From Marvania coccoides (Eukaryota > Chlorophyta > Trebouxiophyceae > Chlorellales > Chlorellaceae): 64,000 bases of DNA. The DNA is taken from positions 1,302,001 to 1,366,000 of the forward strand of contig OY978102.1 in NCBI GenBank assembly GCA_963854735.1, given 5' to 3'. Numbering within the stretch: position 1 is the stretch's first letter; each line of letters starts with the position of its first letter. The notes under the pieces are model-generated. The model made no database searches. It was not told where the DNA came from and was given only the letters and a program-made list of their open reading frames with translations. The position numbers and the translations under genes were made by a program. Shown here in pieces: positions 19,655 to 28,545 of the stretch.

Positions 19655-22600
19655 ATGAAGATATTTGCATGCATACTGCTCATCACGCTGTCCTGCAGCC
19701 AAGCAGCCCCCAAGCCCGGCGTCGAGCGTCTTGAGCTAGTGCTGTAAGTATTTCACTCTCGCTGCACAAAAAAACTCGTATTTCACTCTCGCTGCAAAAA
19801 AAAAATCTCAAATACTATCATTCCCAATTATGATGCAGAGACTGGAACCCCAGCAACTGCTGGCCCTTCCTCAAATCTACCTGTCTTGTGGCCCCGTTAG
19901 AAGCGTTTACAATCTCAGAGCTGCGGCCCCGCCCCAATTCGGAAAAGATTTGCGGGGTGAAGCCTTCCAGCGCAATTGACGTTACCACGCAGATTGACGC
20001 CGATGTCAAGCGGAGCTTGGACTGCGCGTGGATGGATAGTGAGGCACCAGACCGCAACAACGCTCCGCTGTGGAACGGCGTGTGGACCAGCGAAGGCTTC
20101 TGTGCAGGTTTCACTGCCCCGGAGTACTTCCGGTATGTTTTTTTCTATTTTTAAGAGTAATTTCGCTTGGCATTACCCCCCCGCCCCCCTTTTTGTTTAG
20201 GTTCATTACCGAAACGTACCCCAAATACAACCCAAATGTACGTCCTTGAATTGCCATTAGCACACGTGCACCGGTGAAATATTATTTATTTCTCATAATA
20301 CATGGATTCGCAGACGGTTATGACGCAGTTCGGCGTGAAACCCCCCTCCGTCGATGGCCCTACCTTCAAGAGCCAGCTTTCCGAGGCGTTTAAGGCGCAG
20401 GTTAGGCTGGAGTGCTTAGCAGGCACATCTACCCTTATCAACGTGGTTGTGTGCTTCAATGCCACCGGCAGCCCCGCCGTGAATTGCCCCGCTGCCGAAG
20501 AAGCGACTTTGAACTGCCCTGCTGCAGGGGCACTGGACTTGCCAACCACAGACACCAAGCCGCCCACCGTGCGTGTGGGGGATGGTTGCATGGGTTTTGT
20601 GAGGCCGTATTATGAGTCCATTGCGCCCCCCCAGCCTCCGCTCCCCCCAACCAACACGACGCCGCCAGAGCCGCCGGTTGTTCAGCCAAACGACACACAA
20701 ATAAACCCGCCGCCGCCGCCGCCTCTGGCTCAGGCCACCGATATCGACCACCTCGAAATGATTTTTGACTGGAACGCGCAATGGTGCGTCTTCTTTCTCG
20801 GTTTTATTTTTTTTCTCTTTGCTCAGATTTCAAGATTTTCTCCATTGCTATTTGCAGGTGCGCACCGGAATATGTGGGATCCAGCTCGTGCACTGTGAAC
20901 CCTTTCGAAGGATTTTCATCCTCTGAGCTTGTGGCTAGCCCCCACAACAACTCAAAATGCTTGAGCCCCCCACCGGACTCGGCAGTAGATGTCACCACCC
21001 AGATCCCCGCCGACGTACAGAAGAAATTGAAGTGCAGCTGGGAAGACCTGGAATCGACCACCGGGGACAGCAATGTGCTGTGGAACTCCGTTTGGAGCAC
21101 TGAAGGTTCGTGTTTTGAACCGGCACAACTGATTAGTTTTCTTCCTGGTCACATTCCAGTCATATTTGTTCATGTCTTGTTTTTCAGGTTATTGCACTGG
21201 CTTCAGCGTGCCCGATTATTACAGCAAAATGGCTGAGGTCAGTTCAGAAACACGATTTGTTTTCCAAGGTGTTGATTTACGCCCCCCCCCCCCCCCCCCC
21301 CCCGCCCCCTCTTTTTGTTCATATGCCAACCATTTGAAAACCTGTATTACTGTATACTAGTTGCCCGTAATTATTCTTTTTCCTACTCACTGCGCAGTTG
21401 TACCAAAAATATAACCCCAACAAGGTTATGGCTACTTTCGGTGTGAAGCCACCCACCGTGGACGCAGCAACGTTCTTCGGCCAGCTGTCGCAAGCTTTTG
21501 GAGCTCACGTCAAAATCGACTGCGACCCCGCCACCAGGCTGTTCGAGAACATCATTCTCTGCCTGGATCCTGCTGGAAACACTCCTGTAGACTGCCCAGA
21601 AGCTGCCCAAGAGGCTGCGTGCCTCACCGGCCAGCTCAACTTGCCCACCAACACCTTGCCGGCCCTAGAGCGTATTTCTGAGCAGTGCATGGCGTTTGTT
21701 CAGCCCTACTACAAAGACGACAACATGGCGAATCGACCGCAGACCTACACTGTCCAGAAGCTCACTGTGGAGGGTGTGGACCAGGTGGAGTTCACAGCGC
21801 AGCAAGAATCCTACAAGCAGGCCCTCAGCGGCATCGCAGGGGTGCCGACCACCTGGATTGAGGTGAAAACCAGCGCTGCAACGAGGCGCAGGGCGCTGCT
21901 GGCGACGACCAGCATGCAGGTGGAGAATAGTGTGTACACTGCGGATCCGGCGGACACTCAGACCAGGCTTGACACCAGCGTGAAAAGCGGCGCGCTGCAA
22001 ATGGAGCTGACCGAGCTGGGAATGACAGTGGCAGGACAGGTACGGTTCACGTACATTTCCGCATAAGTGATATATATAGCATTGTGTCTTGGTTCGAAGA
22101 AACACAATACATTGTATTTCACTTTGCTACAGGAGCCTGAAGGCGGCGGATCTTCAAACGTTGCCGTCATTGTGGGTGGCGTCGTGGGTGGAATCGTTGC
22201 CGTCGGTAAGATGGTATTTAACAATTAATTCATAGCATTATTTGGCTAAAAAAACACAATTTCTTTTCTTTGCAGTTGCTGTTTTGGCCATCATCCTGGT
22301 CGTACGCAAGAAAAATGACAAGAATAACAACAACAGCAACAACGGCGCTTTGCTTCTGGAGCAGCAGCGCCCCACCTCCGGCATCCCCTCACCAAGCTAC
22401 TCCCCAGCGTCGACTCCAGCGTACCAGTCCGCCGACCCCATGTTCGCCACCTCTCCCCCTGTGGCCGTCTATGGCCCAGTCGGGAACATCAGCGCCCGCC
22501 AAGTGCAACCCCCCCCATCGCTGCCTTCCCAGCCAGAAGAATTCCCCACAATGTTTGTTGACGGAGGTAGCCCCAACTCTACCCCCATCACCAACTGGAA

Positions 22601-24284
22601 CTACAACTCTGCCACCACGCAGAGCGGAGGCTCAGTGCCCTCTGCCCCGCCTTCTCCTTTCTCCCAGTCCCATTCCCAGTCCCAGTCCTCCGCCCGCCGG
22701 GGATCGACCGCGCTGGCTGCCGACCCGCTGATGCAGTACATTCGTTCCACTGCTTCCATGCGCTCGACATCCTCTGGCGGTGCCTCTCGCGGGGCGCTGG
22801 AAGAGTGGCAACTGCGCTTCGAGGACATTGTCATTGAGAGGCCCATCGGGGAGGGCAGCTGGGGGCGGGTTTACAGGGGTAAGATTGAAAGACCGTGCAA
22901 AGGCGGCGGGATGGTCCTGGGAATTTACAAGATTGAAATTTTATTCTCAAAGAATCGATTTCACCCTCGATTTTTCACTGTGTTTTTTGGGCGTTGTGTA
23001 GGGAGCTGGAACCAGACTCAAGTCGCAGTAAAGATCCTGCTGGAGTCCAGCGGTGACGCCCAAACCAACGGCACCCAGTCTGCGCTGATGAACCTTGAAA
23101 GCCCCATCATGCAGGCAAGTATTGGCGGCGGATTACGTCATCTTGCCGGAGTACACTGGGCATATGAAAAATCATCTTAAATCTTTAGATTGAGAAAAAT
23201 TCACAGAAAACATCGTTACAATATATACAATGCTTTCTAGTATCCACGTTTTTTTTTTCGCTGCTTGCAGAGGCTGGGCCAAGAGGCATCTTTGATGACC
23301 ACTTTGCACCACCCAAACATCGTCCAATTCCTGGGAGTGACCATCGCTCCTGCCGCCGTCGTGACTGAGTTTTGCAGCCGCGGCTCCCTCACCAGCGTGC
23401 TGCAGAGCGGCAAAGCCAGCCTCGAGCGTGCTGCAGAGCTGCCTTGGTCGCGCCGCGTTCGCTTCGCTGCGGACTGCGTCCGTGGCATGCTCTACCTGCA
23501 CTCGCGCACCCCGCCCATCCTTCACAGAGATCTGAAGTCTGCAAATTTGCTGGTAACCGGCAGCTGGAAGCTCAAAGGTAGGCTTATACAGCGTCCATGG
23601 AGCCACCTGCACTTCAATTGTAGAGCACCCCCTTTTTCTTCTGCTCGACCGTACGGGGCCTTTTAATTTTTTTCCTACCATGTTTTGCTTTAAAGTGAGC
23701 GACTTCAATCTCAGCAAGGTCCTTCAAGAGACTACGCGCTCCACGAGCCTCCAAGCCATGAACCCCAGGTATATTTCGAATTATATTCTGTTTCTGCGAC
23801 GCGAATGCCGCCCCGATTATTCACCCATGCGATGTTTCTTACTCTTCTGAAGATGGCTGGCTCCTGAGGTGCTCAATGGGGGTCCCGCCTCCCTCTCCAG
23901 CGATGTTTTTGCCTTCGGCGTGATCATGTGAGTACTACATTGCTTATTAATCGTAATTGTTTTCAATAATGCCGACATTGCTGAAATTCTAATGAAATTT
24001 ATATCGCATTCGAACGCTGCAGGTGGGAACTTTTGACTTGGGAGCTGCCTTGGGGCAGTGCAAATCCTTGGGCCATTGTTGGCCAGAGCACCAGCGGTGC
24101 GCGCCTGCCAATCCCGTCCCCGAACGACCTTCCCGGCCCTGACAGCGGCAGCTGGCCGCAGCTGGGTCGCTACATTGCGTTGCTGGAGCGCTGCTGGGCC
24201 CAGGATCCGGGGGCTCGTCCGACTTTTGACGAAGTCATGAATGAGCTGCTGCAAATTGACTCTACAGCGGCAGAGAACGATTAA
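19655..24284 (+). CDS. Receptor-like protein kinase with two catalytically dead RNase T2-like ectodomains
   Basis: Fourteen exons: 19655-19743, 19839-20132, 20201-20237, 20314-20783, 20858-21105, 21188-21237, 21398-22039, 22133-22205, 22276-22878, 23002-23114, 23271-23577, 23696-23768, 23853-23927, 24023-24284; 1111 aa, all phases consistent. Signal peptide about 1-18; RNase T2-like domain A about 25-240; Pro-rich linker 245-278; domain B about 286-503; a domain at 511-610 with the RRRALLAT motif; membrane span about 620-645; Ser/Pro/Gln/Asn-rich linker; TKL-type kinase about 816-1103 (GEGSWGRVY, VAVK, HRDLKSANLL, SDFN in place of DFG, APE). In both T2 domains the active-site blocks FTIHGLWP and WEHEWxKHGTC are replaced (FTISEL/FSSSEL; WNGVWTSEGFC/WNSVWSTEGYC), while the Cys and fold motifs remain. 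Intron 10 has a GC donor. Probably a surface receptor; ligand unknown. Confidence 0.82.
19746..19800 (+). repeat. Two-copy direct repeat in intron 1 of the receptor gene
   Basis: GTATTTCACTCTCGCTGC occurs twice, each copy followed by an A-run. The first copy overlaps the GTAAGT splice donor region. Confidence 0.8.
21283..21303 (+). repeat. Poly-C tract in intron
   Basis: Run of about 20 C residues inside intron 6 of the receptor-kinase gene. Its length is likely to be unreliable in sequencing. Confidence 0.85.
22890..22927 (+). repeat. Short dispersed repeat, copy 3, with apparent target-site duplication
   Basis: Lies in intron 9 of the receptor-kinase gene. It runs from GACCGTGC to GGGAATTTAC and is flanked on both sides by AAGATTGAAA, which looks like a 9-10 bp target-site duplication. 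It begins only about 10 bases after the splice donor. Confidence 0.65.
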
Positions 24285-24884: not shown

Positions 24885-26673
24885 ATGAAAAGCTTTAGCA
24901 TTTCAATTCTGTTATTTCTGCTGTGGAATCAGTGTTCATGGGCAGCTGAAATCGAACGACTTGAATTTTACATGAAAGTGATCAATCGACCGAAATTAAA
25001 CTTAGACGGTAGCTTTATTTCACTGTTACAAGCTTGAAGTGCTCATTTTAGTAATGTGATATCGTCAAGTAACCCTCGTACACTCCTTCCAAGAATGTCA
25101 ATTTTCAATTCCCCTGCCCGTCTGCCGTCACGCTATTACAACTCTGCTATTGCTATTTTCCTCCCCAATGCGCAGGGATTGGAACCCCTACTGGCGAGTT
25201 GCCGAATAAAAATAGCTTGCGAAGAAAATTATTGAGAATATTCTTGCTCATTGGAAGCAAACCGGACAGGAGTCCGACTCAAAAGCCGGTTGAAGAATGA
25301 GCTAATTAGCTTATACGTCGCTCTCTGTTAAATTGAATTACAAATTCCATCTGGTCTGACACGTTTCGCGTGTTCTTCTTCAGGTGCACGTCTGTGGACG
25401 GCGGGTGCAACAAATCTCCGGTAGAAGCATTCACTATTTCGGGGCTACGGGCTTTGCCTTCGAACAATTCAAAATGCATCTCACCGGCACCTACATCTGA
25501 CTACAATGTCGTCCCTGAGATTGCCGTTGATGTCCAAAGAAAATTGAACTGCAGCTGGATTGACTCTGGCGTGCCTGTTGGAGGCTCAAATGGCGGGCTG
25601 TGGAGCAGCACCTGGACAACCCAGGGCTACTGCACGGGGCGTACCGTCCCTGCCTATTTTCAAACGACAGCAGAGGTAATATTCCCATAACAGCAATATA
25701 TTCAGCAAAAACAATATATTTTAATTCTATTTATTTCGTTTTCTCGTGCAGCTGTACTCGAGGTATAATCCCAACCGGGTGATGGATTTCTACAGCGTAA
25801 AACCCCCCTCATTGAACGTCGCTTTGTTCCGAAGCCAGCTTTCTCAAATCACAAACGGCAAGCAAGTCAACGTCGAGTGCGATGCAGGGGTGCTGAAACA
25901 TGTCGTAATGTGCTTCACCCCCGACGGCAAAAACCCAGTTGACTGTCCTTCCAACACGACGTATAAATCTTGTACTGCCGGCACGCTGAGCTTGCCCACC
26001 TCCGAAACCACTCCCTCAGCGGTAAAGATTCCCGAGACGTGCCTGGCGTTTGTGAGGCCCTACTACGAGCCTGCTACACCGCTTCCAGGGCTTCCCTACC
26101 CGGACACTATTTCTGACAGTGGCGGGTCTTCTCCGAATATGGCCATTATAGTAGGGGCAGCAGTCGGTGCTGTTGCTGTTATTGGCGAGTTAATGCGTTC
26201 GTCTCATGCCAATTCAAGCCTGCTGTTGAATCCAAAACTGCATTCTGTTTTTCGCAGTGTCAATTGTGGCCGTCATTTTCGTGGTGCGCCGCAAAAAGAA
26301 GCGGAAGGCCGGGGGCGCTGAAGATGCCAAATTCTCTAGCGCTCCAAGTGCGTATGTGCCCGATTCGCTGGGCTACTCTTCAGCTGCAGCCCTCACGAAT
26401 CATTCAATTAACTACAGCCCCGGTTCAACGCCAGGATCCCAGTACTACGTGGACCCCATGTTTGCCACCTCCCCGCCCATCAACTCATACATTTCAATGG
26501 GCAACAGCGGCGGGCCCCCAGGAGCGCCCACGCTGCCTGCAAATCAAGCGCTGTCAGGCGGCCCTGTGTCTGCGCCCATCACCAGCTGGAACTCTGGCAG
26601 CACGTCTTCTACCCCGCTATCCACCGCTCCCTCTCCGTTTGCTGCATCGCACGCAAGCTTCGGACAAAATTAG
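24885..26673 (+). CDS. Membrane-anchored pseudo-RNase T2 paralogue lacking the kinase
   Basis: Paralogue of the preceding receptor, same strand. Exon 1 from 24885 encodes a signal peptide (MKSFSISILLFLLWNQCSWA) then ERLEF; its 3' end is unclear. Later exons are 25176-25193 (an 18-nt microexon, DWNPYW), 25384-25675, 25752-26184 and 26258-26673. The single T2-like domain has the same substitutions (FTISGL for FTIHGL; WSSTWTTQGYC for WEHEWxKHGTC) and the same Cys. A membrane span (AIIVGAAVGAVAVI...VAVIFVV) and basic stop-transfer follow. The cytoplasmic tail repeats motifs of the large receptor's linker (DPMFATSPP, PITxWN, SPF) and ends at TAG before any kinase. Introns after 25193 and 26184 need GC donors (GCGAGT). 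The expected donor after exon 1 reads GAAAGT, so this may be a decaying gene, or a decoy or co-receptor form. Confidence 0.68.
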
Positions 26674-26832: not shown

Positions 26833-26965
26833 TATGGTGAGAATACGAAGCCATGCAACGTTTTAAATAGATTTCCAGCGTTGTTTTGCGATCGCTGATG
26901 CTGATTCTGCTCATGTAAACTAATTTTTTGGTTTCAAAGCCCTTTTTGGTTTCTGTTTTCTGCAG

Positions 26966-27240
26966 GGAGCTACTTACCTGGGGGCTGCCCTCGGCCCCAA
27001 CATGTTTGACGTATTTTTAATGCTCTGAACCGCGGCGAATGCATGCCGGTTCCGCCACCTAGCGAGTTCCCAGGCCAGAGCAGCGGAAAGTGACCTAACT
27101 GAAGCGGAAAGTGGCCTCACTTGGGCCGCTACATTGCGCTTTTTGAGCGCTGCAGGGCTCAGTATCCGATGGGATGTTCGCCATTTGACATGATAAAGCG
27201 CGACCCGGTGCAGATGGACCCTTTCATAGGTGACGACAAC
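26966..27240 (+). pseudogene. Vestigial last kinase exon of the paralogue
   Basis: Aligns with exon 14 of the large receptor gene (24023-24284). Shared landmarks are a CTGCAG acceptor, GGAGCT..TTACCTGGGGGCTGCC, CGCTACATTGCGCTTTTTGAG, GAGCGCTGCAGGGCTCAGTA, and CCATTTGACATGATAAAG (matching TTTGACGAAGTCATGAA). It has indels, an internal duplication of AGCGGAAAGTG, and in-frame stops in its first half, and no intact exons link it to the gene upstream. It shows that the paralogue once carried the kinase and lost it. Confidence 0.82.
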
Positions 27241-27532: not shown

Positions 27533-28545
27533 CTATTCGTCCTCCATTTCGTCCTCATCAATCTTTGGCGCCAAGTAATACCGCACGTGCCCGATATCAC
27601 TGCAATGAAATAAGAAGAAAAAACCCACTTTTAGTAAATAGCGATCCCTTGGCTACTTCATTCAAATTTAGCGTTCAACGGCAAGAACCACTTCATTCAT
27701 TTTCTCCTCCTTCACACCACAGTCACACCCACCTGATCTTGTACTCTACCACCACCGGCAGCTCCTTCGACAGCTTCACCATCACCGAGGACGACAGCGA
27801 CGTGGCCTTGGTGAAGCTGTTGAGGTAGCGCAGCGCAAACGTCAGAGTCACCGGCTCCTGCATGTCGATCACGGTCTGGTCCTCTGTGGCATCGGCAGTG
27901 GCGTTCTGGCGGCATATGACGTTGGCAGCGCCGATGTCTCCCGAGGTGGAGAACTTCACGCCCTCTTTCGTGACCGAGATCTCCACTGTGTCGCCAATGG
28001 AAGAAAGGTCCTTGCAGATGCGCTGAAACTCCGGGGATGACATACGCAACGTGGCGGAGTACTCTGTGTCGGGGATGCCCAGGTTCTCGGCGGTGATGTC
28101 CATCTGTTTGAGCTCAAATTCTGAGATTCGGTCTCCGTGTGGATTTTCGAACAAAAAAGTGACAACGTCGGAGCCGTCCTCCACCCGCATGGTGATGGTG
28201 TCGTCGTTGTTGGCGCATTTGAGCATCTTATTCATGTTGTTGAGGTTCATCCCCATAGAGAAGGAGCGGTCGCAGCGGAACTCCTCAAAGCCGTCTGACC
28301 TTATGTTCAACGACACCAGGGAGACGTGGGAAGAGTCCATGGCCTGCAGCGACAGCCCGGTGGTGCTGACCTCGAAGTTGGCTTCCTGAATCAACTCTTT
28401 GGTGGCCTCCAGCAACTGAAATTTGGGAGGAAAAGTGATCTGATCAGAAATTGATGAGGGACGCAGCAACCTAGCGTGGCGCGCTGTGGGCAACGGGGCG
28501 CACCTTTTTCAGTAGACCGCCCTGCGCGAGCTTCGCCTCAAACAT
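27533..28545 (-). CDS. PCNA: Proliferating cell nuclear antigen (DNA sliding clamp)
   Basis: Homotrimeric clamp that holds DNA polymerases and repair factors on DNA. Three exons on the minus strand: 28545-28504 ([14 protein letters not shown]), 28415-27733 and 27599-27533, giving 263 aa, the normal length. Family motifs include [50 protein letters not shown] (a somewhat unusual interdomain loop), [17 protein letters not shown], and the C-terminal [11 protein letters not shown]. It is divergent from the BPG2-like GTPase with only 217 bp between start codons, so the two probably share a promoter region. Confidence 0.97.

Follow-up and report, generated by a model that had tools for sequence, protein, structure and literature searches.

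A small family of candidate receptor kinases with inactive RNase T2-like ectodomains in an alga

Gene organization at the locus and in the genome

The window analysed here is a stretch of 64,000 nucleotides, and all features described in it lie on the forward strand (+). Its source is probably a small green alga: next to a fused chain of three copies, the closest matches to the PCNA are 2zvw and 2zvv, which are plant PCNAs. At 19655..24284 a hand-spliced model of 14 exons gives one uninterrupted frame of 1111 residues, RK1, a predicted receptor kinase with two RNase T2-like domains. Its introns are GT-AG in 12 of 13 cases and GC-AG in the other, with the GC-AG donor after position 23114. Exon 1 (19655..19743) encodes a signal-like N-terminus and then the first strand as far as the DWN motif. 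The hydrophobic core, IFACILLIT, was equalled by none of the 45 ectodomain stretches used as controls; the signal peptide that the first-pass annotation had called is retained as a signal-like core, as judged by hydropathy. T2-like domain 1 (19733..20487; residues 27-198 by Pfam) has FTISEL at CAS I and WNGVWTSEGFC at CAS II. In domain 2 (20749..21595; residues 286-462), which includes a T2 match in one reading frame at 21377-21595, these blocks read FSSSEL and WNSVWSTEGYC. A stem domain (21731..22036; residues ~504-605) that has no Pfam match and no assigned function precedes the membrane span (22166..22320), which is interrupted by a phase-1 intron and gives a hydropathy peak of 3.1 at residue 626, all other peaks being at most 1.72. 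The TKL kinase domain (22830..24248; residues 820-1100 by Pfam), nearest among solved relatives to the CTR1/MAP3K type, has DFN for DFG. The spliced model, Pfam and hydropathy agree with the annotation: two T2 heads, a span and a kinase share a single reading frame.

In the tandem neighbour RK2 (24885..26673) the model, hydropathy and Pfam give a single T2-like domain between a signal-like N-terminus and a membrane span, followed by a truncated tail and no kinase; the protein is 415 residues long provided that exon 1, whose donor reads GAAAGT, is spliced. Downstream of RK2, at 26932..27195, lies what is left of the C-terminus of an RK-type kinase (39% identity, E = 1.8e-6), decayed and with three TGA stop codons.

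Four complete paralogues of RK1 (RK3, RK4, RK5 and RK6), each with a single head, are present at three other loci, so that the T2-headed layout occurs in six genes at four loci and includes the kinase in all of them except RK2. Members of the family share short motifs in the cytoplasmic tail. The N-terminal hydrophobic core is weakest in RK6, where 5 of 45 control stretches were equally high, and at the 19-residue cut-off an N-terminal peak is seen in RK1 and RK3 only. With a signal-like N-terminus, an ectodomain, one span and a kinase in each chain, RK1 and RK3-RK6 are predicted to be transmembrane receptor kinases.

RK1 was spliced by hand from genomic sequence, and its ectodomain and kinase could in principle belong to adjacent genes that the model has wrongly fused. 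We rejected this artefact: the T2-span-kinase join is repeated at the three other loci, where every splice site is GT-AG or GC-AG, and in RK3 one exon of 735 nt runs from within the stem through the membrane span into the beginning of the kinase. The repetition of the join makes two separate genes very unlikely, and we give that reading next to no weight.

Proline-rich stems are found in RK3-RK6, a proline-rich linker joins the two heads of RK1, and the RK1 stem domain recurs elsewhere in the genome, with two firm and two weak matches. These features, together with the different ectodomains borne by related kinases, would suit a protein that serves mainly as an anchor in the wall or matrix and as a strain sensor, the T2-like head fastening the proline-rich stem to the wall. 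Such a role does not account for the retention of a T2 domain that has its full set of cysteines, and we regard it as unlikely. It overlaps the preferred explanation given below where the ligand is a wall glycan.

Relation of the ectodomain to RNase T2

The search against the Ribonuclease_T2 profile (PF00445) that the annotation had proposed gave a clear result. With the curated cut-off of 26 bits as the threshold for membership of the superfamily, whole RK1 scored 109.5 bits (E = 2.9e-31) over two stretches. Taken alone, domain 1 matched at E = 2.7e-15 (residues 27-198; profile positions 5-188 of 188) and domain 2 at E = 6.4e-16 (positions 3-188 of 188). All six receptor genes passed the cut-off, the others scoring 59.4 bits (RK2), 35.1 (RK3), 31.8 (RK4, profile positions 68-181 only), 51.3 (RK5) and 40.9 (RK6). 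For comparison, a T2 gene on C2 of the same genome scored 45.1 bits against 5.6 for the best of its 200 shuffles, a T2 gene fragment on C11 scored 29.2 bits and a T2-like gene on C1 scored 53.8 bits. A further weak match at C2:906k (E = 0.34, then 0.002 in another search) was taken as chance; its frame reads by eye as a flavodoxin-type enzyme.

In the reverse direction, a profile built from the seven T2-like domains of the family retrieved solved T2 enzymes, with RNase MC1 as the best match (E = 1.4e-12), and aligned their FTIHGL and WSHEWTKHGTC blocks onto the altered blocks of the receptors. Each of the seven domains has ten cysteines. By profile the heads are thus placed in the RNase T2 superfamily, which includes RNase MC1 and the S-RNases and with which they share most cysteines and the FT and WxxxWxxxGxC blocks; they differ from it in being fused to a membrane span, with a kinase added in five of the six genes.

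Loss of catalytic residues and constraint on the head

The catalytic replacements described in the annotation for RK1 are read exactly as quoted in the spliced translation, and neither RK1 domain keeps a catalytic His, Glu or Lys. The loss extends to the whole family: all three active-site His and the Lys are absent from 7/7 domains, unlike the situation in RNase T2 enzymes, and the Glu is kept in RK5 alone. Within the CAS blocks, F, W, W, G and C are invariant across all seven. With the CAS I His and the CAS II His, Glu, Lys and His replaced to this extent, the heads are not predicted to be active RNase T2 enzymes.

One function that might be expected of such a head is to sense RNA, whole or in fragments, or nucleotides outside the cell, which would be bound without being cut and reported by the kinase. 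T2 enzymes hold RNA in a cleft, the RK1 domains match the T2 profile over nearly its full length, and a cutter might become a binder by loss of catalytic residues alone. However, the residues that replace the active-site His and Lys are often small, acidic or bulky (S, D, E, W), which disfavours a polyanion, although RK6 has R at one such site. The substitutions also vary from paralogue to paralogue, and therefore no common nucleotide site is evident among them. We consider RNA sensing doubtful and, having found no specific support for it, set it aside as a default function. Of the ligands that the annotation had listed (RNA, nucleotides, a glycan or a partner protein), none in particular is supported, and nothing favours RNA or nucleotides over protein or glycan. 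The signal that the five active-site columns vary more than others is weak, since 985 of 20000 random sets of columns were equally low.

For the RK5/RK6 pair, dN/dS is 0.15 in the head (214 codons) and 0.164 in the kinase (310 codons), values from a single pair of paralogues with dS above 1 and close to saturation. The low value in the head indicates that the dead domain is constrained, and in this one pair it suggests that selection on the head is roughly as strict as that on the kinase.

Two T2 genes of the genome, seen as gene fragments rather than full models, retain FTIHGLWP and EWSKHGTC, with blocks that are largely intact; the enzymatic role of T2 may therefore be filled by other genes. 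Their presence also lends something to the idea of a decoy or guard function, in which the head would mimic secreted T2 enzymes of the alga and report a microbial inhibitor or effector directed against them; dead copies carried on signalling proteins are akin to the concept of integrated decoys. The head tree speaks against this. Its sole firm split separates the two canonical T2 genes from eight dead domains, with a branch of 4.25 changes per column and support of 100/99, so that the heads would be poor mimics. The data also contain no sign of a pathogen, and we judge a decoy function quite improbable.

Within the dead domains the tree is poorly resolved. By identity the closest pairs are among RK1's two heads and RK2 (44-47%), which form one group in 5% of bootstrap trees. 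The receptor heads as a whole form one group in just 25%, because the dead T2-like gene on C1, which has a long branch, is placed among them. The tree gives no confirmation that the receptor heads arose once.

Kinase domain

The RK1 kinase matches PF07714 at E = 2.6e-49 (residues 820-1100) with GEGSWGRVY, VAVK, HRDLK and RWLAPE, which bears out the TKL kinase with VAVK and HRDLKSAN reported from the first reading. All five kinases of the family have VAVK, HRD, the Asp of DF[N/G] and RWLAPE. The Gly of DFG is replaced by Asn in four of them, including RK1, and the glycine loop fits the search pattern in four, that of RK6 (GEGAWGRVY) lying outside it. The kinases are predicted to be competent from their ATP-binding and catalytic residues.

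The nearest solved relative of the RK1 kinase is CTR1 (E = 2.1e-53), followed by MLT/MLK-type MAP3Ks, of which MLT is the next different molecule (E = 1.4e-35); no plant RLK or IRAK appears by name among the best 60 of 457 solved-kinase matches. With the nearest solved neighbour as a proxy for a kinome tree, the domain is assigned to the CTR1/Raf-like TKL kinases of MAP3K type and not to the RLK/Pelle (IRAK-like) type. CTR1 itself is not known to have a T2 head or a membrane span; the likeness to it and to other Raf/MAP3K-like TKL kinases lies in the kinase domain. In a tree of 19 sampled kinases the five T2-receptor kinases form one group (support 90/93).

Proposed function

The reading of RK1 as a receptor is well supported at the level of sequence. 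The annotation's proposal that a pseudo-nuclease fold serves in a surface receptor gains from the recurrence of the layout in six genes at four loci, from the constraint on the head in one pair and from the loss of His and Lys in all seven domains. We think it probable that RK1 belongs to a small family of single-pass receptor kinases, in which a dead T2 head acts as a scaffold for binding outside the cell and signals through a MAP3K-type kinase. The T2 fold would serve as a binding scaffold with no enzymatic role. The head would bind a partner outside the cell, most likely either a protein or a glycan of the wall or matrix, with what was once the substrate cleft or with a different face. Such binding may cluster or re-orient the receptors, the clustered kinases could phosphorylate each other, and the receptor would then act like a membrane-bound MAP3K upstream of a MAPK-type cascade. 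The T2 and kinase halves may have been joined once and the gene duplicated afterwards, with the doubling of the RK1 head and the loss of the RK2 kinase as later steps. That the predicted fold is kept intact while the cutting residues are lost suggests that an old RNA-cutting enzyme was converted into a sensor.

A more speculative extension, which we offer as improbable, is that the lineage recruited RNase T2 once as the head of a membrane MAP3K and spread it to several loci, the former active site diversifying so that each receptor reads a separate signal from outside, be it RNA fragments, partner T2 enzymes or self/non-self surface proteins. The family would then be an algal counterpart, with a kinase, of S-RNase-type recognition.

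Comparison with known proteins

No T2-headed kinase is described among the matches listed in the open-access literature. A protein database, in which the search finds only relatives sharing exact 5-residue words and which may hold few algae, gave no match for full-length RK1 scored on residues 1-540 (1e-3, 8000 best candidates, a search that poly-proline words may have swamped), for RK3 residues 20-245 (E = 10, 416 candidates) or for the seven-domain alignment (E = 1, 3633 candidates). These empty results limit the room for such receptors elsewhere without proving their absence, and they agree with the annotation, which knew of no described receptor kinase of this type.

Receptor kinases headed by worn-out enzymes seem to be rare. 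The one precedent checked is the tobacco chitinase-related receptor-like kinase CHRK1, whose enzyme-fold head is inactive for want of a Glu (PMC10573068). Its head is a class V chitinase, whereas that of the RK family is an RNase T2. CHRK1 carries the kinase typical of plant RLKs, in contrast to the CTR1/MAP3K-like kinases of the RK family. A dead RNase T2 head on a MAP3K-type rather than an RLK/Pelle kinase would be an independent route to plant-like surface receptors in a small-genome alga. The family also offers a clean test case for pseudoenzyme receptors: a single genome of 22 Mb brings together the receptors, the residues they have lost and the kind of enzyme that was ancestral to them.

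Dead T2 proteins are known from other settings: 91 of a set of 715 T2 sequences are reported to be inactive or to lack a conserved His (PMC5598434). CalsepRRP and other inactive plant T2 proteins have a dead T2 fold, as do the RK heads, and the structure of CalsepRRP is matched by the seven-domain family profile (E = 2e-7). CalsepRRP is reported as apparently a storage protein (PMC5598434), and the account of it there mentions no kinase fusion, in contrast to the RK family; a dead T2 can therefore also mean a storage protein, which counts against the sensor reading. The PR5K thaumatin-like receptor kinases have a defence-protein fold as the ectodomain (PMC10868138) and are comparable with the RK family in this respect, differing in that the fold is that of thaumatin and the proteins are from land plants.

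Receptor genes with RNase T2-like ectodomains

The gene RK1 (window 19655-24284) comprises 14 exons, with splice sites read by eye, that join into an uninterrupted reading frame of 1111 aa; of its 13 introns, 12 have GT-AG borders and the remaining one GC-AG. Against Pfam, the whole protein matched Ribonuclease_T2 twice (E = 2.9e-31) and its kinase domain matched PF07714 (E = 2.6e-49), and hydropathy shows a signal-like N-terminal segment and a single strong membrane span at aa 626. The motifs quoted for RK1 in the first-pass annotation are exact, and its assignment of both ectodomains ("heads") to RNase T2 was borne out when they were scored singly, with E values of 2.7e-15 and 6.4e-16 for domains 1 and 2 and almost complete coverage of the profile in both.

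The window spans C6:1302001-1366000 in a genome of 22.46 Mb and 15 contigs. Searching this genome with one head, with two more heads and with PF00445 yielded five further receptor-type genes: RK2, the tandem neighbor of RK1 (window 24885-26673); RK3 (C6:687k, 750 aa); RK4 (C7:867k, 758 aa); and the tandem pair RK5 and RK6 (C13:654-659k, 785 and 803 aa). In the spliced models of RK3-RK6, all introns are GT-AG or GC-AG, and each protein consists of one T2-like domain, a proline-rich stem, a membrane span and a kinase. The T2 cut-off is exceeded by each of the six receptor genes, although RK4 matches only the last two thirds of the profile, and five of the six have a kinase. None of 45 control stretches is as hydrophobic as the N-terminal core of RK1, RK3, RK4 or RK5; 3 of 45 controls are as high for RK2 and 5 of 45 for RK6.

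RK2 ends in a truncated tail with no kinase, a decayed kinase remnant with stops lies downstream (window 26932-27195), and the first splice donor, GAAAGT, is non-consensus. Thus, RK2 is a copy without a kinase and perhaps a pseudogene; the alternatives are a kinase-less co-receptor or a pseudogene.

The genome search also returned two canonical T2 genes, at C2:2058.4-2059.4k and C11:220k, and a dead T2-like open frame (WANIWEDERNC) at C1:1837.6-1838.1k. No kinase match lies in the 8.5-kb stretch that includes this frame, the product of which could possibly be a soluble partner or competitor of the receptors.

Loss of the active-site residues and apparent constraint on the head

A family profile built from the alignment of the seven T2-like receptor domains (A1) retrieved T2 enzymes among solved structures, with RNase MC1 at the top (E = 1.4e-12) and the active-site blocks in register. 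The same profile scored 45.1 bits for the C2 T2 gene, 29.2 for a fragment of the second canonical T2 gene and 53.8 for the C1 T2-like gene; the highest score among 200 shuffles of the C2 gene was 5.6 bits.

We name the five active-site positions H34, H83, E84, K87 and H88, which we take to follow RNase MC1 numbering. The three histidines and the lysine are kept in none of the seven receptor domains, and the glutamate is kept only in RK5. By contrast, all seven agree at the adjoining F, W, W, G and C. Each domain has ten cysteines, with eight cysteine columns common to all in the alignment. The C2 canonical gene has both active-site blocks intact (FTIHGLWP and WDHEWSKHGTC), and the C11 gene reads FTIHGLWP and WSYEWSKHGTC, with Tyr in place of the first histidine of the second block. 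A long acidic low-complexity insert separates the two blocks in the C2 gene.

The heads of RK5 and RK6 are 72% identical. Nei-Gojobori counting for this one tandem pair gave a dN/dS of 0.15 over 214 head codons, with dS at 1.37, and of 0.164 over 310 kinase codons, with dS at 1.11; both dS values are near saturation. In this single pair, with that saturation, the dead head appears to be conserved about as strictly as the kinase.

Kinase type and origin of the fusion

Among the best 60 of 457 matches to solved structures, the RK1 kinase is closest to CTR1 (E = 2.1e-53), followed by kinases of the MAP3K type, so by this nearest-relative proxy it is not of the RLK/Pelle type. VAVK, HRD, the Asp of DF[N/G] and RWLAPE are present in all five T2-receptor kinases; DFG reads DFN in RK1 (aa 978-980), RK4, RK5 and RK6, and is DFG in RK3.

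When 19 kinases of the genome were placed in a tree, a branch with 90/93 support, recovered in 88% of bootstrap trees, set the five T2 receptors apart from the rest. The 14 other rows are a sample (15 tried of 30 loci, from 156 genome matches); one locus, L037, was left out because its glycine loop escaped the search pattern, and some of the rows represent one kinase exon only. In the head tree, the split between the two canonical T2 genes and the eight dead domains is firm (support 100/99), but there is little resolution beyond it: only 25% of bootstrap trees unite the seven receptor heads to the exclusion of the C1 gene, and 5% unite the two RK1 heads with RK2. The kinase tree supports a single origin of the T2-kinase fusion, a point that the head tree does not settle. 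The two RK1 heads share 45% identity, compared with 32-38% between RK1 heads and those of RK3-RK6, which suggests that the RK1 head was doubled.

A larger set of related TKL receptor-like kinases bears other ectodomains, as judged from translations read by eye rather than from profile matches: RCC1-like repeats (L035, L036, L037 and L040), leucine-rich repeats (L050) and unassigned regions (L063, L064 and L065). Two more related kinases, L048 and L049, have ankyrin repeats and no visible signal, also by eye. T2 thus appears, on these by-eye labels, to be one among several heads on one kinase type, indicating head swapping.

Proposed function and known analogues

The first-pass annotation had proposed a surface receptor built on a pseudo-nuclease fold, with RNA among its possible ligands. 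The receptor layout holds at the sequence level. A protein or a glycan of the wall seems to us a likelier ligand than RNA: after the replacements no anion site is evident, and the substituted residues vary from one paralogue to another. Judging from the architecture, constraint and kinase type, the head would bind its ligand, binding would activate the kinase, and the kinase may feed a MAPK-type cascade.

Plant T2 proteins that are inactive or lack a conserved histidine are no rarity, numbering 91 in a set of 715 sequences, one of the 91 being a storage protein; the portion of that article consulted names a kinase once, as the Brassicaceae S-locus receptor kinase (PMC5598434). The main text of a receptor survey of 350 plant and algal genomes contains no word starting with ribonuclease or RNase (PMC10834447). 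In line with the first-pass annotation, to which no described receptor kinase of this type was known, the open-access literature, mostly at the level of listings, yielded no T2-headed kinase. The closest working analogue is CHRK1 (PMC10573068), and PR5K is a second (PMC10868138). We would file the T2-headed kinases under receptor kinases with a pseudoenzyme head, a kind already known.

Stem domain, cytoplasmic motifs and neighboring gene

The stem domain of RK1 (window 21731-22036), between the second head and the membrane span, contains an RRRALLA segment and has no match in Pfam. Elsewhere in the genome it matches C8:421109 (E = 1.2e-10) and C11:539511 (3.0e-7) and, weakly, C11:491076 (6.1e-4) and C6:726618 (0.009). 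About 0.5 kb downstream of the C6 site lies another kinase match (C6:727446). Candidate regulatory or docking sites are DP[LM][LM].YI, upstream of the kinase in all five kinase-bearing members, and [FY]ATSPP, in the tails of RK1, RK2, RK3 and RK5. Adjoining the RK1/RK2 pair is a PCNA gene on the minus strand (window 27726-28508), the best solved relatives of which, after a three-copy fused chain, are 2zvw and 2zvv, presumably plant PCNAs.
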